Part shown: positions 31,679 through 54,706 of the stretch, piece by piece | Layout of the letters: each line of letters starts with the position of its first letter | How positions within the stretch are numbered: position 1 is the first letter of the stretch | Source of the DNA: Alkalibacter rhizosphaerae | Lineage (GTDB): Bacteria > Bacillota > Clostridia > Eubacteriales > Alkalibacteraceae | Length of the DNA: 64,000 nt | Direction of reading: 5' to 3' | Assembly (NCBI RefSeq): GCF_017352215.1 | Contig: NZ_CP071444.1 | Location: forward strand, 310,001-374,000 | Program-made: the position numbers and the translations under genes | The notes under the pieces: generated by a model | Database searches by the model: none | Told to the model about the DNA's origin: nothing | What the model saw: the letters and a program-made list of their open reading frames with translations, nothing else

Positions 31679-32271
31679 TGGATCTCCTCTTCTTTGTTTA
31701 GTTTTCCAGTGACGATATAAATGGGATTGTTTCCCTCCATCATGGTAACTCCTCCTACCGACCGTCCCCTGGCAACGCTCACCTGTATGGTCTCGCAGTC
31801 AAACCCGGCTGCTTTCAATCCTTGGATAAACATCACGGCGTTTTCCAAAACGATAAAATTGCCGACCACAATACCATCCGCTTTCAAATGACCTGCGATC
31901 CATTCCACGATTTGGGGCAAATTCCCCTTGCTGCCTCCAACCACGATCCGATCTACCGGTTCTACAATGTCCAGATCTTCGGGGGCCTTTCCCAACACCG
32001 GGATTACATTATGAAGGCGGAACAAGGACAGATTTTTCCGGATCAGATCCATGGCCGCTTCATTGGTCTCGATGGCAATAACTTTGCCATTAGGGGTCTG
32101 CAAGGCCATTTCCACCGTGATGGATCCTGTCCCGGCACCAATGTCCACACCGACCAAACCATCTTCCATCCGCAATTTGGACATAGTGATGGCTCGGATC
32201 TCTTCCTTGGTCATTGGAACGGCCCCTCGTTCAAAATGTTCATCCGGGATACCCGGGTAATATTTTTTCAT
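31675..32271 (-). CDS. cbiT: cobalt-precorrin-6B C15-methyltransferase (decarboxylating) CbiT
   Basis: 198 residues, class I SAM methyltransferase fold, unlike the other cbi methylases. PGIPDEHFERGAVPMTKEEI at the N-terminus is the CbiT signature; motif I is VGVDIGAGTGSITVE. It methylates C15 and removes the C12 acetate carboxyl. Here CbiT is separate, while its usual fusion partner CbiE is fused to CbiD. It overlaps cbiDE by 32 nt. Confidence 0.94.
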   Translation of the reverse strand: MKKYYPGIPDEHFERGAVPMTKEEIRAITMSKLRMEDGLVGVDIGAGTGSITVEMALQTPNGKVIAIETNEAAMDLIRKNLSLFRLHNVIPVLGKAPEDLDIVEPVDRIVVGGSKGNLPQIVEWIAGHLKADGIVVGNFIVLENAVMFIQGLKAAGFDCETIQVSVARGRSVGGVTMMEGNNPIYIVTGKLNKEEEIQ

Positions 32272-34009
32272 CAATCAACACCACCACATTCAGATTTTCA
32301 AATCCCATTGCCTTTGCTTCCTCCAAGCTGCACCGGGTGATCTTCTCCTGGGGATAGGAAAGATCTTCCCCCACGATCATGGTGCGGTCCACTCCTTTGT
32401 CCAACAAGATCCTGGCTATTTGGCCCGGAGTGTTTTTAGGATCGGTCAGCAAAACACAAACAGGCGCAGACCGGATTCGATCCAGCGGAAATTCATTGTT
32501 GCCATGGAGACTGACAATATCTGCCGGATGCCACATTTCCTGCAACCTTGAAAAGAGATAGGTAACGGAAGATATCCCAGGAACCACACGAAATGTCACT
32601 TCCGGTGCATTTCTTTTCAAATAGGCGGTCAGACTGTAAAACCCCGGATCGCCGGATACGAGACAGGCCACCTGTTTTTTCTTATGAAAGGTTTTCATAC
32701 ACTCCAATGCCCCGGAAAGACCATCCTCCACGTACATTTTTTGTTTCCCTTCCATCTGCAGTCGTCCTTCCAGACTTTCCAGATGACGTCGGCCTCCGAT
32801 AAGGACCTCTGCATCCTCCAGTGCTTCCCAGGCTTTGGGCAACACATAATCGGGATGCCCTGGTCCCATACCCACAATAGCTACGGGGTAGAGTTCCCTG
32901 ATCAGGGAAAATGCAGATGGATTCCAACCCAGGATGCCATGGTCGTTGGAAAAGACCAACAGCTTCAAGTCCAATTCCTGTCCCAACTTATAGCGTAGAT
33001 GGTACTCGATCCGTTCCATGATTTTTTCCATCACCGGCTTCATCCGACCATCTTTTTTCAAGTGATCCAAGGCATCGTCGCATGTAGCACTGGACAGGAT
33101 CTTTTGCAGCAATTCCTTGTCTGCACCACATGCTCCTGCATGGGCAGCCAAAATCTCCATGCGCGCATCCGAATGATGGGAATGGGTATTCATGATACCG
33201 CCTGCCAGTTTCACCATTTTACCGATGTGTCCCACAAAAACCGCTTCTTGAAACTTTAAATCGGAGATCATTTCCAGTACTTCGCCAAAATGGTTCCCGA
33301 TCTTGATGCTGTTTTCCATGGAAACATCCAAGTGATCCGACGCAAACTGCCTTCCATAGTTTCCAGGGAAAACGATCACTTGATGAGAACCGTTGTTTCG
33401 TATTACGTTCAGCTCCACTCGAAGAGAATCCAACAACGCTTTTTCACTCATGGGTTCCACGATCCCAGTCGTTCCGATGATGGAGATCCCCCCTTCGATT
33501 CCAATACGGGAATTGTAGGTTTTTCGGGCTCGCTGCACTCCATCGGGAACAAAAATCGTCACTTCCAGCCCTCCTTGGTACCCCGTTTCCTGGATCACGG
33601 TTCGGGTTTCCTGAAGGATCATCTGTCTGGGTATGGAATTGATGGCAGCCGAACCCACCGGTTGGTCCAATCCCTTTTTTGTCACGACACCAATTCCTTC
33701 TCCTCCAAGGATTCGTATGCCCGCCTCTTTCGTTTTTTTTACACGGGCACCAATGTACATGCCATGGGTACTGTCCGGATCATCCCCGGCATCTTTTCTG
33801 ATCATGCAGGAGACCGAACTTTCTTCCACCCTTGCATTTTCAACCGATAGCGAAAGCTCCCAGCCCTTCGGGGTGGAAATGGAAACGGTGGATATTTTTT
33901 CATCCGATAGAAGCATGATCGCAGCAGCTTTAGCTGCCCCGGCGGCGCAGGAACCGGTAGTAAATCCGTATCGAAGGCGTTTCCCGCCTTTTTCAACAAA
34001 CCGCTCCAC
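32240..34009 (-). CDS. cbiDE: CbiD-CbiE fusion: cobalt-precorrin-5B C1-methyltransferase and C5-methyltransferase
   Basis: About 589 residues. Residues 1-365 are CbiD: YGFTTGSCAAGAAKAAA near the start, VTKKGLDQPVGSAAIN, and GHIGKMVKLAGGIMNTHS. Residues about 385-589 are CbiE, a tetrapyrrole methylase with VAIVGMGPGHPDYV, LVSGDPGFYSL and VVPGISSV. So one chain would hold the C1 and C5 methylation steps. The join has no stop or frame change. The GTG at 34009, 7 nt after GAGAGG and 4 nt after the cbiC stop, is the best start; ATGs at 34027 and 34024 lack an SD. Confidence 0.92.
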   Translation of the reverse strand: MERFVEKGGKRLRYGFTTGSCAAGAAKAAAIMLLSDEKISTVSISTPKGWELSLSVENARVEESSVSCMIRKDAGDDPDSTHGMYIGARVKKTKEAGIRILGGEGIGVVTKKGLDQPVGSAAINSIPRQMILQETRTVIQETGYQGGLEVTIFVPDGVQRARKTYNSRIGIEGGISIIGTTGIVEPMSEKALLDSLRVELNVIRNNGSHQVIVFPGNYGRQFASDHLDVSMENSIKIGNHFGEVLEMISDLKFQEAVFVGHIGKMVKLAGGIMNTHSHHSDARMEILAAHAGACGADKELLQKILSSATCDDALDHLKKDGRMKPVMEKIMERIEYHLRYKLGQELDLKLLVFSNDHGILGWNPSAFSLIRELYPVAIVGMGPGHPDYVLPKAWEALEDAEVLIGGRRHLESLEGRLQMEGKQKMYVEDGLSGALECMKTFHKKKQVACLVSGDPGFYSLTAYLKRNAPEVTFRVVPGISSVTYLFSRLQEMWHPADIVSLHGNNEFPLDRIRSAPVCVLLTDPKNTPGQIARILLDKGVDRTMIVGEDLSYPQEKITRCSLEEAKAMGFENLNVVVLIDEKILPGYPG

Positions 34010-34013
34010 TGCC

Positions 34014-34652
34014 CTACCTCTCATCATCCATCAGATAGAAGATGGCGTTCAAACAGGCGACTGCAACCGTAGAACCGCCTTTTCTTCCCTGGACGATGAT
34101 GGATGGCACATCCATGCGGGAAAAATCTTCCTTGGATTCCGCTGCGCCAACAAAGCCAACAGGCACTGCAACGACAAAATCCGGTCGGACTCGACCTTCT
34201 TCTATGGCTTTTGTCAAGGTAAACAAGGCCGTGGGAGCGTTGCCGATCAAATATCCCTTCACTTCCGGGTCATCGAACGCTTTTTCCATGGACACCATGC
34301 TCCTGGTGATCCCTCTTGCTTTCGCTTCTCGGATCACGTCTTCGTCGGCTACAAAATTGACGATCTCACAGCCCAGACGTTTCAGTGTTCTTGGGTTTAC
34401 ACCGGATTTGATCATATTGGTATCTGCATAGATCTTGACCCCCTTGCCCAACGCTTTTTTCGCAGAAGCAATGGGTCCATGTCGAAATCGGAGCAGGGAT
34501 GCATATTCAAAATCGGCGGTGGTGTGGATCACTCGTTTGACCACCATCCTTTCTTCGTCGCTAAAAGATGCATACACACCAGGATCCACCTCCGATTCGA
34601 TGATTCGAAAACTTTCTTCTTCAATATCCATTGGCTTTTTAATAAACTCCAT
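34014..34652 (-). CDS. cbiC: cobalt-precorrin-8 methylmutase CbiC
   Basis: 212 residues. The catalytic His is H43 in VIHTTADFEYA; KIYADTNMIKSGV and AVPVGFVGAAESKE are the family's substrate-binding blocks. It moves the methyl group from C11 to C12 and yields cobyrinic acid. SD GGAGG precedes the ATG, which overlaps cbiK by 14 nt. Confidence 0.95.
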   Translation of the reverse strand: MEFIKKPMDIEEESFRIIESEVDPGVYASFSDEERMVVKRVIHTTADFEYASLLRFRHGPIASAKKALGKGVKIYADTNMIKSGVNPRTLKRLGCEIVNFVADEDVIREAKARGITRSMVSMEKAFDDPEVKGYLIGNAPTALFTLTKAIEEGRVRPDFVVAVPVGFVGAAESKEDFSRMDVPSIIVQGRKGGSTVAVACLNAIFYLMDDER

Positions 34653-41483: not shown

Positions 41484-42731
41484 TCAACCACCATGCCTTT
41501 TCGAAAGTCCTTCCATAAACACTTCCAAGTTGGACTGCTGCAGTTTGTCATCCGGCTTTTTCATCCGAATAATGGGTTTTTTAAAACTTTGTTTCAAATG
41601 TCCCATCAGTAGCCGGCCGATCTCTTCCAGTTGATCCGGCGTTAGTTCTGTATTTTCTTCCAGATAGCCGATGGTTTCCCGCTGGATCCCTTCGCATTTC
41701 TCACTGACGTAATCCAATAGCGGATCCAGCCTGCTGACTTTTTTCCAATGAATGTAACCCTCGACTTCTTTCTGGAGATCTTCCTTGCACTGCTCCACGA
41801 TCTGCCGTCGCTTCTCCATATTCCCATCCACCACCTTGCGAAGATCGTCGATGTCAAAGAGTGAGATCCGATCCCGATGACGAAGTTCAAGATCCACGTC
41901 CCGTGGGATGGCCAGGTCCAAAACGGATAAAGGTTTTTTTCGAATCTTCACCCGGTCTGCCATGTACACCACATGAGGGGAAGCGGTGGCCGAGATCAGC
42001 ACATCGGCTTCGTCCAATGCATCAAACCTGTCGTCATAACGAACCGGGATCACTTGCTGGTACTCCGATAAAGTTGCCATCAGATTGTCGTGCCTCCGGT
42101 TGGTCATGAGAACCTTTTCCGGTTTTTCAGATAGGACATGTCGAAGGGCCAACGTTCCCATGTTTCCCGCACCGGTGATCAGCACTTTTTTGCCCTCCAG
42201 TCCATTTCCGGACTGTCTGAGCAATTGGATCCCTGTATAGCAGGTGGATATGGGTGTTTCGGAAAAACCGTAATGATGGCGGATCTTCTTGGAAAAGGTA
42301 ACCCCCTCCCGAAACAGCTTGTTGAGAAATTTCCCGCTGTGCTTGTATTCCATTCCAAATTCCAAGGCTTGTTTGACCTGTCCCAGGATCTGGTCTTCCC
42401 CCAACACCATGGAATCAAAACCGGAAGCCACCTGGTAAAGGTGCATGATACCTTCTCTTTCCTGCCAGACGTTTAAATAGGAATCGATCTCCTGGCCTCC
42501 AAAAATCGATGCGAAGGCGTTCCGCGCATCCTCCACCGCTTTTTTCGGTTGTTTGGACACCATATAAATTTCGCTTCGATTGCAGGTGGAAAGGATCAGC
42601 ACCTCTCTATGGCCTTGATCCAGCAAATGCCGGGCCCACTTGTGTTTTTTTGCGTTGGTATCGAATGCCGCTTTCTCCCGAATGCCAACAGCGGCCTTTT
42701 TGTAGTCCAGTCCTACTACGACGATTTCCAT
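41484..42731 (-). CDS. hemA: glutamyl-tRNA reductase HemA
   Basis: 415 residues. Catalytic C50 in LSTCNRSEIY; GEDQILGQVKQA; NADPH fold VLITGAGNMGTLA; a C-terminal helical dimerisation region. It reduces glutamyl-tRNA to glutamate-1-semialdehyde, the first committed step. SD GGGGTG. It overlaps cbiO by 16 nt, so tetrapyrrole precursor genes sit in the same transcript as cobalt uptake. Confidence 0.96.
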   Translation of the reverse strand: MEIVVVGLDYKKAAVGIREKAAFDTNAKKHKWARHLLDQGHREVLILSTCNRSEIYMVSKQPKKAVEDARNAFASIFGGQEIDSYLNVWQEREGIMHLYQVASGFDSMVLGEDQILGQVKQALEFGMEYKHSGKFLNKLFREGVTFSKKIRHHYGFSETPISTCYTGIQLLRQSGNGLEGKKVLITGAGNMGTLALRHVLSEKPEKVLMTNRRHDNLMATLSEYQQVIPVRYDDRFDALDEADVLISATASPHVVYMADRVKIRKKPLSVLDLAIPRDVDLELRHRDRISLFDIDDLRKVVDGNMEKRRQIVEQCKEDLQKEVEGYIHWKKVSRLDPLLDYVSEKCEGIQRETIGYLEENTELTPDQLEEIGRLLMGHLKQSFKKPIIRMKKPDDKLQQSNLEVFMEGLSKRHGG

Positions 42732-43531
42732 GATTTTTCACCCCAATAGTGATATAAGTCAGACTCCTCTTTGAATACCGGAACCTGCATGTGCCGGTGG
42801 ACCTTGATCAACCAGGGGATCTCCAACCCGCAATCTCGAATGATCTCTTCTTCTAGAAACACCTTTTCCGGCGATCCTTCCAATCGATTTCTCCCTTGGT
42901 GGAGTACGTACACATAGTCGGTGATACGATAAATAAAGTCCATGTCATGGCTGGAAACCACCACTTTTGTCCCCTTGTTCTGCAGGAATCGAATGATCTC
43001 CACGATACCTTCCTTCATGGCAGGATCCAACCCTGCGGAAGGCTCATCCATTAGGATGACCTCCGGATCCATGGCCAATACGCCGGCAATGGCAACCCTC
43101 TTTTTTTGACCATAACTGAGCAGATGGACCGGCTTTTTCTGCACCTCCAAAAGTTCCATGACTCTCAGAGCTTCCTCTACCCGCTCATTTACCAAGATTT
43201 CATCAAGACCTGCGTTGCGCAGGGCAAAGGCAACATCGTCAAAGACGTTGGAAAAGAAGATCTGCTTGTCCGGATCTTGGAAAACGACCCCCACCTGTTG
43301 ACGATAGTTATTTAAAAAAGATTTGCCGTAAGTCATTGGATCTTGTTTGTAATATATTTTTCCTTGGGATGGCCGAAGAATTCCCATTATATTCATAAAC
43401 AAAGTGGACTTTCCGGCACCGTTGGCTCCAATAATGCCAATAACGCGCCCTTTCTTCAGATCCAGAGAAATGTTGTTTAAAGCTTGACTGCCATCTGTGT
43501 AGTTATAATACAATTCTTTGATTTCGATCAT
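42716..43531 (-). CDS. cbiO: cobalt ECF transporter ATPase CbiO
   Basis: 271 residues. Walker A GANGAGKST, Q-loop VVFQDPDKQIF (the DPD-QIF form is typical of ECF ATPases), signature LSYGQKKRVAIA, Walker B VILMDEPSAGLD. It energises CbiMNQ for Co(II) uptake, forming a homodimer since only one ATPase is encoded. SD GAGGAG; 9 nt after cbiQ. Confidence 0.95.
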   Translation of the reverse strand: MIEIKELYYNYTDGSQALNNISLDLKKGRVIGIIGANGAGKSTLFMNIMGILRPSQGKIYYKQDPMTYGKSFLNNYRQQVGVVFQDPDKQIFFSNVFDDVAFALRNAGLDEILVNERVEEALRVMELLEVQKKPVHLLSYGQKKRVAIAGVLAMDPEVILMDEPSAGLDPAMKEGIVEIIRFLQNKGTKVVVSSHDMDFIYRITDYVYVLHQGRNRLEGSPEKVFLEEEIIRDCGLEIPWLIKVHRHMQVPVFKEESDLYHYWGEKSWKSS

Positions 43532-43540
43532 GTTATCTCC

Positions 43541-44221
43541 TCAGACGTGAAAATCGCCGTTAAAATTTTTTGTCGCCAGTACCATTTGCCAGTCGTTGTA
43601 GCTTTCCATCATCTTCGAATAGGTCATGACCACCAACATGGCCAGGGATTTTCTGGAAATTTTCATGGTTGCGAATCCGTTGCGCAGCTGCAAAGCATGA
43701 TAACTGTCATGCACCGAAGCAAGAAAAATATGAAGAAACCGGTAGATCAGAACAATCAGTTCAATGAGGATCACGGGGAAACGAAACCTCTTCAACACAC
43801 CAACCAACTGGTTCAGGGGCGTGGTCAAACTTAAAAAGTATAGACAGGACAAGGAAGCCACACACCGACCGGTCAACACTCCCACGATTCGGATCGATTC
43901 CCTTGATATTCCTATATGATAATTCCCCATTTTCCAATACCATTCCAATCCATCTCCCGATCCGGAAATGGAAACCAGCAATGTCAAAACGCTCAACAAC
44001 AAAAACGACACCGGGATCAAATATAATTGAACATAGGCTCTCCATGGGATCCGGGCGAATCCGATCACCATGACGGTCATGGTGATAACAACGATCATAT
44101 GTAAGAGTCCTTTCGACGTCAACAAGGATGATGTGAGCCCCAACAAAGCGAAACCCAGCTTCCATTCCGCCGATCTTTCAGCCATCTTGTTGCTGTATGC
44201 ATAAGCATCCATATCAAGCAT
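43541..44221 (-). CDS. cbiQ: cobalt ECF transporter transmembrane protein CbiQ
   Basis: 226 residues with five or six membrane helices. Start [11 protein letters not shown] is typical of CbiQ. The cytoplasmic coupling segment holds ARS-type motifs: [16 protein letters not shown] and the [12 protein letters not shown] region. It is the T component that couples CbiO to CbiM. The ATG at 44221 overlaps the cbiN stop by 8 nt. Confidence 0.92.
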
Positions 44222-44492
44222 TTTTCTTGCAACCCTTTCGATAACCCAGGTAATAGGCAATCACACCGGCACCTAATGCAGCCTGCGAGGCAAAGAGCAT
44301 GCTTTCGATTTCCCCACTGGCCGGTTCCACCAAAGGCTGGAACCATGGTTCATAGTCCGGGTCGATTTCTGCGATGATCCCTTCCGCTTGACCATCCGCT
44401 CCTCCGAATTCCGCATCGGGAAGCAGGACCAGCGGTACGGTCACGATCAGAACCAATAAAAGCACTAGGATCAATATGCTAGATTTTTTCAT
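44214..44492 (-). CDS. cbiN: cobalt transporter auxiliary subunit CbiN
   Basis: 92 residues, two membrane helices ([19 protein letters not shown] and [17 protein letters not shown]) with a short external loop rich in Asp/Glu. This is the size and topology of CbiN. The ATG at 44492 would overlap the expected cbiM stop (TAG 44479-44481) in the usual coupled manner. In the sequence as given the frame continues upstream into cbiM because of a frameshift, so a reader would see one 333-codon frame from 45212 to 44214. Confidence 0.88.
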
Positions 44493-45212
44493 AAAGCAAT
44501 CCCTCTTTCTCGTTTTCTTTGATCTTGTTGAATACCAACGCACTAAGCAGGCCTTCCCCAAAGCGATGGGTATTTGGGTGACGGCAAAGACCATCAGAAA
44601 TTTCCCGACAGAACCCATCAATCCACTGACCGGATCAGGGAATGCCAATCCTAGTTGGAAAGAGGTGACTACGTAAGTAGCCAAGTTTCCAACAGCTGTC
44701 GCCGCAAAAACACTGATGTACACATTCCAATTACCTTTCCGGAGCAGTCGAAACAATCCATAAGCCACAAATGGTCCCACCACCGCCATGGAAAACGCAT
44801 TGGCTCCCAGTGTCGTCAAGCCGCCGTGGGCAAGAAACAACGCTTGAAACAACAAAACGATGACGCCCAGGACGGACATGATGGACGGGCCAAATAAAAT
44901 AGCCCCAAGGCCAGTTCCGGTGGGATGGGAGCAACTGCCCGTTACCGACGGCAGCTTTAAAGCGGACAAAAGGAACACAAATGCTCCAGCCAAAGCCACC
45001 AATAATTTTTTTTCCGGTTCTGCCTGGAAAATCTTGCGCAACTTCAAATAACCAAGTATCAGGAACGGTATGGTGGCTCCTGCCCACAAAAGAGCCCAAT
45101 GCAATGGCAAAAAACCCTCCATGATATGCATGGCATGGACCTGTTTTTGATAAAACAACATTCCTCCAACGATCATGAGTACTGCAGCTGACTTGACTTT
45201 CTTTTTTTTCAC
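44479..45212 (-). CDS. cbiM: cobalt ECF substrate-binding membrane protein CbiM, with apparent frameshift
   Basis: Signal peptide ([10 protein letters not shown] to QVHA), then the mature start MHIMEGFLP whose Met and His bind Co(II), followed by [17 protein letters not shown] and membrane helices. After [10 protein letters not shown] the given frame leaves the family, but the +1 shifted frame encodes [17 protein letters not shown] up to a TAG at 44479, the normal CbiM C-terminus. Adding one G to the GGGG run at 44556-44559 restores it. Start: GTG 45212, 9 nt after GGAAAGG. Restored length is about 244 residues. The shift may be an assembly error, a real mutation or recoding. Confidence 0.85.
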
Positions 45213-45245
45213 GTTGATCATCCTTTCCATTTTACCGAAGGGAAT

Positions 45246-45271: not shown

Positions 45272-45338
45272 ATAATAGCAGAACAAACGTTCTACGACAA
45301 GCAAACATCTTCCCTCCGAAGCTTTACGAATCTCTCCA

Positions 45339-45481
45339 GACACAGGCAGGTCTCCTGGCTCGGCATCATCCAAACTCCCAGCCTTCCCACAACTTTCGTT
45401 GCAGTGGCATCTTTGGGGGTTTGTCCTCCTCACAGTAGCGGGGGCTGCTGAGGTATTGCACCTCATTCCCTTTTAATCGTT
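45339..45481 (-). promoter_or_regulatory. cobalamin riboswitch
   Basis: On the minus strand the B12 box AGCCAGGAGACCTGCC is near 45342-45357. Upstream are GATGCCACTG, the GGGAAGGCTGGG stretch and a GC-rich CAGCCCCCGCTACTGTGAGG block, in the order of the cobalamin aptamer. With the terminator at 45246 it would switch off the whole operon when adenosylcobalamin or another cobalamin is plentiful. A promoter must lie between 45482 and 45573, an AT-rich gap without a gene, but no clear consensus is seen (TTGATT-17-TACCCT is the best candidate). Confidence 0.92.
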
Positions 45482-45573
45482 AGAACCTATATCGTTTATT
45501 TAGTTGTTAAATCTAGGGTACCACAGGCAAATTTTTAAATCAACATATTTTTCACAAATGAATATTTATACAT

Positions 45574-46743: not shown

Positions 46744-47487
46744 TTACAACAGCTTCAATATCTCCTCTTTCAACTCCATGGTCCTGGGCGATAAAAACCG
46801 TTTTTCCTTGTGATCCCTGTCATAATCAAGAACGATCTCCCGTTCGATGGTGGCCGGGATCTTGGACAGTACATAGATCCGGTCGGACAGGTAGATGGCT
46901 TCATCGATGTCATGGGTGATGAAAACCATGGTATTGTCCAAGGTGTCTTTCATGTCCAACAGCCAATGCTGCATCTGTCTTCTGGTAGCATAGTCCAATG
47001 AACCGAAGGCTTCGTCAAAGAGCATGATGTCTTCCGCCCGCATCAAGGTACGGACAAAACTGACCCGCTGGCGCATGCCTCCGGACAACTGGTAGGGGTA
47101 TTTCTTTTCCGTTCCCTCCAGCCCGGCCAAGGGAAGATATTTTTCGATCTTTTCTTGAATGATCTCTTTGGAGACATGCTGCAGTTTTAGGGGCAGGGCA
47201 ATGTTTTCATAAACCCGTTTCCATGGAAGAAGCAGATCTTTTTGCTGCATGTAGCCGACAGAGCCCTCTACTTCCACCTTTCCCCGATCTACGCCGTACA
47301 AGCCGGCAATAATGTTGAAGAGGGTGGATTTTCCGCTGCCGCTGGATCCAAGCAGGGTGACCACTTCCCCTTTTTCCACATGGAGGGTGATGTCTTCGAA
47401 AACGATCATGTCGTCAAAGGATTTTGCAACGTGCTCCAGAAGGATCACCGGTTTTCTATTGGGGAAGGAACTCGTTGGTATAGGCAT
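46744..47487 (-). CDS. thiZ: ABC transporter ATPase for thiamine precursor (ThiZ-like)
   Basis: About 247 residues, nitrate/sulfonate/taurine-type ATPase. Walker A GSSGSGKST, Q-loop MQQKDLLLPWK, signature LSGGMRQRVSF, Walker B IMLFDEAFGSLD. It powers the ThiXY importer encoded just upstream. The start is uncertain: ATG 47487 lies inside the end of thiY (32-nt overlap) and internal starts are possible. Confidence 0.88.
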   Translation of the reverse strand: MPIPTSSFPNRKPVILLEHVAKSFDDMIVFEDITLHVEKGEVVTLLGSSGSGKSTLFNIIAGLYGVDRGKVEVEGSVGYMQQKDLLLPWKRVYENIALPLKLQHVSKEIIQEKIEKYLPLAGLEGTEKKYPYQLSGGMRQRVSFVRTLMRAEDIMLFDEAFGSLDYATRRQMQHWLLDMKDTLDNTMVFITHDIDEAIYLSDRIYVLSKIPATIEREIVLDYDRDHKEKRFLSPRTMELKEEILKLL

Positions 47488-48463
47488 TTTCCACATCCAA
47501 CTCCTTTTCCAGCAGTCCGTATCCTTGGAGGAAGTCTGCGTAATTCTGCCATACTTCTTCTTCCATCAAGCCCCACTGAGGGGCCTCACCCTTGTATTCT
47601 CCCGCCAAAAACTTCTGGCTTTCCACTACCAGGTCCTGGTCCAGTTCCGGTGCATACTCCAGCAAGATCGCCGCTGCTGCTTCCGGGTCGTCCATAGCGT
47701 ATCGATATCCCCGTTCCGTCGCTTTCAAAAATCTGCGGACTTTCTCCGGATCACTATCTCGAAGGGCCGTATTGGTCACCAAGACAGGAGTATAATAGTT
47801 CAAGTCTTCATGCAGGTCCTTCAGTGGCATGTAATCCAGCTCCACACCCCGCAGTTCCGCTTCGAGGCCGGTCCAGCCTTCGAAGATCCAAACGATGTCG
47901 ATGTCCTTGTCCGTCGCGGCAAAAAAATCATCGGCACCAATATTGACATTTCGAAGTTTGGTATAATCCGCTCCGGCACTGGTCATGATTGCCTCCAAAA
48001 TGGCTTCTTCCGACGGCGAACCCCAGCCGCCGTATACTTTTCCTTCAAAATCTTTGACGGTTTGGATGTTTTCCTCTTTTCTCCAGGCAAATCCCGAAGT
48101 ATTGTCCTGGATGATGGTGGCAATGGCGATCACAGGCAGAGGATCCTTTCCAGTTCGTGCATAGGTCACATCTTCCTGATAGGTGACACCAAAGTCTCCC
48201 TGACCCGCTGCCACCAAGGTAGTGGAAGAACCTTCCATGGGCTGGACGATCTCCACGTCCAGTCCTTCTTCTTCATAATAACCATTCTTTAGTGCCACAT
48301 ACAGACCGGTATGGTTGGTGTTGGGGGTCCAGTCAAGGATCACTGTGGTTTTCTCCAACTCTTCCGATCCATTGGGTCCCTCCGGGCCATTGGAACAACC
48401 AGTAAACAGCAGCAGTACAACCAGCATGCTCACCAAACAATACATTACATATTTCTTTATCAT
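47456..48463 (-). CDS. thiY: NMT1/THI5-like substrate-binding lipoprotein (ThiY)
   Basis: About 335 residues. Lipobox LLLFTGCSN anchors it outside the membrane. The NMT1/THI5 fold shows in VILDWTPNTNHTGLYVALKNGYYEEEGLDVEIV. In Bacillus, ThiY binds N-formyl-aminopyrimidine, a thiamine breakdown product; the TPP riboswitch upstream supports a thiamine-related ligand. Start ATG 48463 or the adjoining GTG 48466; it overlaps thiX. Confidence 0.9.
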   Translation of the reverse strand: MIKKYVMYCLVSMLVVLLLFTGCSNGPEGPNGSEELEKTTVILDWTPNTNHTGLYVALKNGYYEEEGLDVEIVQPMEGSSTTLVAAGQGDFGVTYQEDVTYARTGKDPLPVIAIATIIQDNTSGFAWRKEENIQTVKDFEGKVYGGWGSPSEEAILEAIMTSAGADYTKLRNVNIGADDFFAATDKDIDIVWIFEGWTGLEAELRGVELDYMPLKDLHEDLNYYTPVLVTNTALRDSDPEKVRRFLKATERGYRYAMDDPEAAAAILLEYAPELDQDLVVESQKFLAGEYKGEAPQWGLMEEEVWQNYADFLQGYGLLEKELDVENAYTNEFLPQ

Positions 48464-49230
48464 CACTCTTCATTCCTTTCATTTTGCCATTTCAATACAC
48501 GGTTGCTTATCAGGTCGATGATACCAATGAGTATCACGCTCAATGCGACGATGACCAGAATGGATGCGAACACCCGATCCAACGCATAGGCATTTTTGGC
48601 CCGAAGCATATACACGCCGATGCCCCGGTCCCCACCCAACCATTCTCCAATGACAGCGGACATGATCATGTAAGTGGCAGCGATCTTCAATCCTGCAAAG
48701 AAGGTGGACATGGAAAAGGGCAATTTTAAATGGACCAGGGTTTGGATCTTGGAAGCCTTCATGGTCTCAAACAATTTCAGACAATCATCATCGATGGCTT
48801 CCATCCCATCCACCAGACTGATGGCGATGGGAAAAAAACAGACGATGATGACGATAACGATCTTCGGTAATACCCCAAATCCAAACCAGATGATGAACAA
48901 TGGCGCCAACGCGATGATGGGAATGGTCTGGGATATGACCAAAATGGGATAGAGGGTCTTTTTCACCGCCTCAAAACTGTCCATGATCACTGCAAGACCA
49001 AATGCCAAAGCAATGGCAAAGGCAAATCCCACCAGGGATTCGTAGACGGTGACTTGCAAATGATGGTAGATCAGCTGATGATCACCGATCAATGCCTGGC
49101 CGATCTCCACTGGCGTAGGCAAGATATACCCGGGGACTTGGCGGATCACCACAACAGCTTGCCAAAGGATCAGGAGTACTACGACCCCGAAAATGGGATA
49201 AAACCTATCGATATTTTTTGATTTTTTCAT
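48463..49230 (-). CDS. thiX: ABC transporter permease (ThiX)
   Basis: 255 residues, six-helix permease of the SsuC/TauC type with the EAA-like loop MKASKIQTLVHLKLPFSMSTFFAG (read as LVHLKLPFSMSTFFAG). Partner of ThiY and ThiZ. The ATG at 49230 lies within the last 26 nt of the thiamine-binding gene, after GGGGTG. Confidence 0.92.
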   Translation of the reverse strand: MKKSKNIDRFYPIFGVVVLLILWQAVVVIRQVPGYILPTPVEIGQALIGDHQLIYHHLQVTVYESLVGFAFAIALAFGLAVIMDSFEAVKKTLYPILVISQTIPIIALAPLFIIWFGFGVLPKIVIVIIVCFFPIAISLVDGMEAIDDDCLKLFETMKASKIQTLVHLKLPFSMSTFFAGLKIAATYMIMSAVIGEWLGGDRGIGVYMLRAKNAYALDRVFASILVIVALSVILIGIIDLISNRVLKWQNERNEE

Positions 49231-49498
49231 CCATGGTCACCCCTGTTTTTTTGGCGTCTACTTTGATGACGGACACCACCCGACCTGCGCCTTCTTTAAA
49301 GCAAATATCCTGGGCTTTTGCCACGATGTCCATCAATTGATGGTAGGGCCCTTCCATGGTGGTCTCCATGGGACCGACCAGGTACTTCACTCCAGTAGAT
49401 CCGATGTATTCCAAAACACGGTCGATCCTTTCCAGGGAGATCTCTTCTTCCCCGATGGGCAAAATCTGCAAACTCACATTGACGATTTCGTTGTTCAT
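49205..49498 (-). CDS. MTH1187/YkoF-type thiamine-binding protein
   Basis: 97 residues, one ferredoxin-like domain of the family formerly DUF77: VNVSLQILPIG at the start, GVKYLVGPMETTMEGPY, and the C-terminal VVSVIKVDAKK. Relatives bind thiamine or hydroxymethylpyrimidine. Located between tatD-like and thiX in the TPP-controlled operon. Its role, perhaps a cytoplasmic thiamine carrier or sensor, is not known. Confidence 0.87.
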   Translation of the reverse strand: MNNEIVNVSLQILPIGEEEISLERIDRVLEYIGSTGVKYLVGPMETTMEGPYHQLMDIVAKAQDICFKEGAGRVVSVIKVDAKKTGVTMDEKIKKYR

Positions 49499-53756: not shown

Positions 53757-54706
53757 ATGATTAATACAAGAACAGAAGGTGTTGTTTTGGATACAAAATT
53801 ATTTTTTACAAAAAAAAGAAATATCGTATTGCTGGCCATTTTATGCACTCTGCTGTGGGGCAGCGCCTATCCCGGGGTAAAAACAGGATATGAGCTCTTT
53901 GCCATTGAAACATCGGACATCTACGGCAAAATCGCCTTTGCCGGATATCGATTCACCCTGTCCGGAATCCTGGTGCTGATCTTTCACTATCTGGTATATA
54001 AAAAAATCGAGATCCCGACAAAAGTCCAGTTGCCCCGGGTCTTCTTCCTGGGCCTGATGGTCACTTCCCTGCAATACTCTTTGTTCTACGTGGGTTTGGC
54101 CAACACGACAGGCATCAACGGCGCCATTCTCAATGGGACAGGCACCTTTTTTTCCGTCCTCCTTGCCCATTTCATCTATGCAGACGATCGGTTGAACCTG
54201 CGAAAAGCTTTGGGAACGGCCGTTGGTTTTTCCGGAGTGGTTTTGATCAACCTGGCCGGCAATCCGGATGCACCTTTGCAGATCAACTATCTGGGCGACG
54301 GACTCCTGATACTGGCCGCATTAATGAGTGCCATCGGCTTCATTTACTCAAAGAAACTCAGCCAGTCCATCAACAGCGTCACATTGACTGGCTTTCAGCT
54401 ATTATTCGGTGGAAGTGTACTGGTCATGATCGCCCTGGCCAACGGAACCCCCTTCGGGGCTTCACCCCCACCTCCACTCTATTGCTCTTGTATTTGTCCT
54501 TTCTGACAGCCACGGCCTTTTCCATATGGACCACCTTGTTCAAGTACAACCGGGTCAGCAGCATCAGCCTGTACAAATTTTTGATCCCCATTTTTGGCGC
54601 TGTTCTCTCCGCACTCTTTCTGGGAGAAAGCCTGTTTCGATGGGTCAATCTGATCGCATTGGTTCTGGTCAGCTCCGGAATCTACTTTGTCAACAAAACC
54701 CGCTGA
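53757..54706 (+). pseudogene. EamA/DMT-family permease, frameshifted
   Basis: Ten-helix drug/metabolite transporter. The first frame gives helices 1-7 (from RNIVLLAILCTLLWGSAYPG) and, after NGTPFGA, runs to a stop at 54506 in Pro-rich nonsense. The +2 frame continues the protein from GFTPTSTLLLLYLSFLTAT to SGIYFVNKTR at 54706. One extra G in the GGGG run at 54456-54459 would restore NGTPFGGFTPTS and about 316 residues. Either an assembly error or a recent inactivating deletion. Start 53757 (ATG) or 53787 (TTG, better SD GAAGGTG). TATAAT at 53736-53741 is a possible -10. Confidence 0.85.

Follow-up and report, generated by a model that had tools for sequence, protein, structure and literature searches.

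The cobalt transporter locus

The window analysed here is a stretch of 64,000 nucleotides (C1:310001-374000) of the genome of Alkalibacter rhizosphaerae, which is assembled as a single contig of 2449552 bases and is 98.9% complete. Its reverse strand carries a cobalamin riboswitch followed by cbiM, cbiN, cbiQ and cbiO (Table 1), and the locus is most likely an ordinary cobalt energy-coupling factor (ECF) transporter operon controlled by this riboswitch. It is established (PMC7689651) that cobalt is bound by a two-part unit of CbiM and CbiN, which CbiQ and CbiO drive; the same paper describes CbiM plus CbiN as the smallest set able to transport cobalt, and CbiN as only loosely bound. The locus resembles the known CbiMNQO system: a cobalamin riboswitch is followed by the complete set of four components in their customary order, and the CbiM encoded here matches the solved CbiM 5x3x over residues 1-196. 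It differs in the assembled sequence, where a single frame spans CbiM and CbiN and the last CbiM helix ends out of frame. The references used for both proteins were the profiles TIGR00123 and PF01891 (CbiM), TIGR01165 and PF02553 (CbiN), and the solved CbiM structures 5x3x and 5x41.

The mechanically called open reading frame (ORF) begins at 45308, a start that was not adopted for cbiM because it precedes the terminator-like hairpin of the riboswitch. The gene probably starts at the ATG near 45221, which was picked by eye and has other start codons nearby. At residues 60-65 the sequence MHIMEG aligns to residue 1 of 5x3x, as expected for the start of mature CbiM, a metal site. CbiM and CbiN are each encoded once in the genome, and no Co/Ni permease of the NicO family was found in it; loss of either protein would therefore probably carry a cost. 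Upstream of the cobalt operon, at 46744-49498 on the reverse strand, lies an ABC importer composed of an NMT1/THI5-like binding protein, a permease, an ATPase and a protein of the thiamine-binding family, which perhaps takes up a thiamine precursor.

Table 1. Features of the cobalt transporter locus and genes with a frame switch elsewhere in the sampled chromosome. Positions are those of the window unless a contig (C1) or locus (L123) is named.
Feature	Position	Strand	Remarks
Cobalamin riboswitch	45328..45505	-	Upstream of the operon; Rfam RF00174, 130 bits (gathering score 31.5), model positions 1-189 of 189
cbiM, most likely form	44482..45221	-	Frames change at 44564-44554; ends in the other frame with stop codon 44481-44479
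Frame-switch stretch GCTTTGGGGAA	44554..44564	-	One base short relative to G002; G run 44556-44559
CbiM C-terminal tail and stop codon, other frame	44479..44553	-	21 of 25 residues identical to G002
cbiN	44214..44492	-	Own ATG (44492-44490) kept; PF02553 and TIGR01165 above cut-off
cbiQ, transmembrane T component	43541..44260	-	Bounds are those of the ORF; TIGR02454 115.5 bits (cut-off 111.8); PF02361
cbiO, ATPase	42716..43531	-	TIGR01166 234.5 bits (cut-off 211.8); PF00005
EamA-type transporter	53787-54703	+	Switch near 54449-54459; CCCCC run, one base short relative to G002
cysE (serine O-acetyltransferase)	L123:3177-4108; C1 near 417390	-	Two frames; GGGGG run, one base short
Gene weakly similar to MtaA/CmuA methyltransferases	near C1:756210		Frame switch at a G/C run
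Fructuronate-reductase-like gene	near C1:766340		Frame switch at a G/C run
TRAP transporter dctM	near C1:770900		Frame switch at a G/C run
Unnamed 129-aa gene	near C1:774070		Frame switch at a G/C run

The frame switch between CbiM and CbiN

A first-pass annotation of this DNA, made from the sequence alone, had noticed that one open frame reads through CbiM into CbiN, and the profile searches agree. In the ORF 45308-44214 (reverse strand), the CbiM part scores 165.9 bits with PF01891, 277.2 with TIGR00123 (curated cut-off 184.15) and 305.4 with NF006184 (cut-off 180), while the CbiN part reaches 100.3 with PF02553 (cut-off 25) and 108.1 with TIGR01165 (curated cut-off 104.85), so that both parts belong to their families. 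The CbiM match in the fused frame ends where the frames part: it covers positions 1-196 of the 214 in TIGR00123 and, likewise, only 1-196 of the 222 residues of 5x3x.

The assembled sequence at 44564-44552 (reverse strand) reads GCTTTGGGGAAGG, and the GGGG run within it stands between GCTTT and AAGGCC. Past this run, the other frame holds the tail of CbiM, which stops with a TAG ending at 44479 and overlaps cbiN by 14 nt, exactly where the earlier annotation had placed it. The motif EG[LIFV][LIVA], which closes the last helix, is present in this other frame and absent from the assembled one, where GKACL stands instead. Over the 64 nt ahead of the cbiN ATG there are 17 differences from the same-genus relative G002, of which 12 fall on third, five on first and none on second codon positions of the CbiM frame. 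Since the differences follow these codon positions, the tail was under selection in the CbiM frame since the split from G002, and its conservation in the other frame is not a matter of chance.

The switch could lie anywhere in the 11-nt stretch given in Table 1, with a net shift of -1 relative to G002. The G run is its likeliest site, though the adjoining TTT is also possible. It had been proposed that one extra G in the run would repair both genes. The shortage of a single base stands. This base is probably a G, as relatives read Gly-Glu-Gly there and the present sequence has four Gs at the spot, but with the adjoining TTT this is not the only solution.

Related loci and natural CbiMN fusions

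Related loci were collected from 61 genomes (44 with a match, giving 30 loci including the present one) and from species genomes (80 loci kept of 536). Apart from the present locus, 108 of them carry both genes (105 distinct loci and three junction repeats) and one further locus lacks cbiN. In none of the 108 are cbiM and cbiN fused, and EG[LIFV][LIVA] is kept in the CbiM frame at the position of the switch in all 109 other loci. The first-pass annotation had suggested this comparison; together with the net shift of -1, its outcome upholds the view taken there that the fusion is only apparent and results from the loss of one base. The same-genus relatives are G002, whose GC content is 38.7% vs 47.0% here, and G001; the junctions of the family-level relatives G002-G005 were compared directly. 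The draft genome of G001 gave no CbiM-CbiN match at E 0.001, while the present genome and G002 both have one.

A wider search covered 391 genomes of the class Clostridia at E <= 1e-60 and gave matches in 62 genomes. Among the 64 matches listed, two hold both domains without a stop, namely the present locus and one in G211, an incomplete genome of the class, in which the fusion lies at about 2721-3725 of L231 (reverse strand, contig G211:C93). The two are alike in that CbiM and CbiN share one ORF; they differ in that G211 keeps the tail EGILTVLMFN and adds a linker to CbiN, whereas here the tail is lost. CbiMN fusions are thus possible in nature, but look unlike the one assembled here.

This difference bears on the idea that a CbiMN fusion evolved in this organism and was selected as such. 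The natural cases among the matches listed (the present locus and G211) speak in its favour, as does the basic character of the new linker, which would presumably sit on the cytoplasmic side of the membrane. The ORF does not consist of two complete domains joined by a linker, as its CbiM profile match breaks off at 196 of 214 positions; the conserved end of CbiM is replaced by out-of-frame sequence where the sole other fusion found retains it. Moreover, the substitutions in the tail follow the CbiM frame and no close relative is fused. An evolved fusion was consequently rejected and is considered extremely improbable. A literature search on fused CbiN yielded nothing related among the matches listed.

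Frame switches elsewhere in the assembly

The search for comparable lesions sampled 864 kb of the same chromosome, consisting of two blocks chosen by position together with the window. ORFs from stretches of G002, G001 and G005 were aligned to it by tblastn at an identity of at least 45%, by which 286420 coding bases were compared (206154 from the initial 464 kb and 80266 from the 400 kb that follow). The frame changed at nine places, five in the first part and four in the second; two, both in the first part, were false hits, and the other seven, cbiM included, are true mid-gene switches. Places 280400, an out-of-frame overlap upstream of a hemW-like gene, and 378500, a T-box-like leader, were dropped by eye; both names are our assumption from sequence motifs.

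All seven switches have a net shift of -1, none shows a base too many, and every switch stretch contains a G/C run of 3-6 bases (Table 1). Two of the seven stretches also contain an A/T run of three, TTT in cbiM and AAA in the unnamed 129-aa gene. The switch in the EamA-type transporter is probably a second consensus error within the window. Four switches are clustered within about 18 kb (C1 about 756000-774300; L241 and L242), possibly because this stretch was poorly covered. Overall, mid-gene breaks of this kind occur at 2.4 per 100 kb of coding sequence compared.

Among runs of at least four bases in the sampled DNA, 21% are G/C and 79% A/T. The probability of finding all seven switches at G/C runs is roughly 0.00056 for runs of at least three bases and 2e-05 for runs of at least four, values that ignore the clustering of four sites and include the two stretches with an additional A/T run of three. 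For the five unambiguous sites only, it is about 0.005 for runs of at least three (G/C share 0.343). A shortage of long G/C runs relative to G002 was looked for in the genome and was not evident.

The reverse comparison found no true switch in 475188 bases of the relatives (G002 277228, G005 113629, G001 84331), control genomes that are AT-richer with fewer G/C runs and may be of short-read origin; alongside the next 400 kb, it gave no place at all in the relatives. All three places flagged in G002 were dropped by eye, being a T-box-like leader, the cbiM/cbiN pair itself, and cbiD/cbiE. At 32243-34030 of the window (reverse strand), CbiD and a CbiE-like tetrapyrrole methylase occupy one ORF without a frame switch, while G002 has two genes; from its sequence, this ORF looks like a true in-frame fusion.

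Frameshifting, mutation or consensus error

The first-pass annotation had named three possible origins for the switch, among them frameshifting with two protein products. Whether programmed or occasional, a -1 shift at T_TTG_GGG would yield CbiM from the shifted frame and CbiMN from the zero frame, and indeed a heptamer of the form X_XXY_YYZ (T TTG GGG) is present in phase, from which a -1 shift enters the conserved tail. Such heptamers are common, though: in phase they occur 2.55 times per kb in the ORFs of the genome, and TTTGGGG itself 25 times in 384 ORFs. The heptamer is absent at the junction in the nearest relatives compared (G002-G005), no fusion is present in the 108 loci, and the 87 nt after the G run form no stable structure (z +0.97; 171 of 200 shuffled sequences fold at least equally well). 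In addition, frameshifting would have to rescue the six other genes as well, at dissimilar sequences. A site with the heptamer and neither conservation nor a downstream structure was rejected as a frameshift signal, given its chance-level frequency and the negative fold; the two-product option finds no support and seems exceedingly unlikely. A literature search for CbiM with programmed frameshifting found no report.

A related possibility is that the genome is correct and contains many one-base deletions at G/C runs of working genes, which are tolerated or bridged by slippage in transcription or translation. Slippage of this type is known from poly(A) tracts in insect endosymbionts. We consider it very unlikely here; were it true, CbiM and a fused CbiMN product would both arise from cbiM.

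The second option is that the strain itself lost one base very recently. Its CbiM would then have a changed, basic end and run on into CbiN, the ATG of cbiN could still give free CbiN, and the transporter would be damaged or the fusion tolerated. In favour of such a deletion, the cbiN ATG and the AGAGGG ahead of it are intact, no other damage is seen in the CbiM and CbiN domains, both of which score above cut-off, and a natural CbiMN fusion is known in G211. On the other hand, the same lesion occurs in six more genes of the sampled 864 kb, and recent deletions would imply dozens of genes broken by deletions alone (a scaled estimate of 53, assuming 88% coding sequence). Also lost from the fused frame is EG(L/I)L, with which the last helix ends in G211 and in each of the 109 other loci. 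A mutation thus stays among the conceivable origins, but an improbable one.

Base-calling error, the remaining option, is the best supported of the three, with six further genes showing the same kind of lesion. It is very probable that a consensus-sequence error overlies a normal riboswitch-controlled cbiMNQO operon and that there is no real fused protein. In this explanation, cbiM and cbiN would be separate genes overlapping by 14 nt in a normal cobalt ECF-transporter operon, and the published consensus would be one base short at GCTTTGGGG. Without that base, the final 25 codons of cbiM would be read in the wrong frame, its stop would be lost and an artificial CbiMN frame would arise.

Error is favoured over mutation because six more genes of the sampled assembly carry a lesion of the same kind. 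All seven lesions, found among the genes that were comparable, are deletions at G/C runs. This suggests that the consensus systematically falls short; decay should have produced insertions, stop codons and A/T-run lesions as well. Repeated one-base lesions of a single type, missing from relatives, are what consensus indels would leave, and from this sequence pattern we infer that the lesions are probably sequencing or consensus errors, not mutations. The assembly of the genome in a single contig suggests, without proving it, that long reads were used. Against an error, it must be said that the seven switches are unevenly spread, four of them lying in about 18 kb, that two of the switch stretches contain an A/T run too, and that the control genomes have another GC content and perhaps another sequencing method.

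Indels in homopolymers are known to fragment genes in long-read assemblies (PMC12007338, PMC8011154). The present lesions resemble the homopolymer-deletion errors addressed there by Kastor (PMC12007338) and Homopolish (PMC8011154) in being one base short, in falling on short homopolymers and in affecting several genes while relatives are intact. They differ from the deletions in the nanopore assembly described in PMC12007338, which were commonest at A/T runs and about half as many at G/C runs, while here G/C runs are involved in seven of seven cases. A pattern confined to G/C runs is therefore not the generic signature of such errors.

Implications

The apparent fusion is most likely not a real feature. 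The locus itself is ordinary, and its main value is as a warning about the assembly, which keeps a CbiMN fusion or a new frameshift site from being claimed in error. With breaks of the same kind at the rate found in the compared coding sequence, the genome is flagged for re-polishing, and other apparent pseudogenes or fusions in this assembly should be doubted first.
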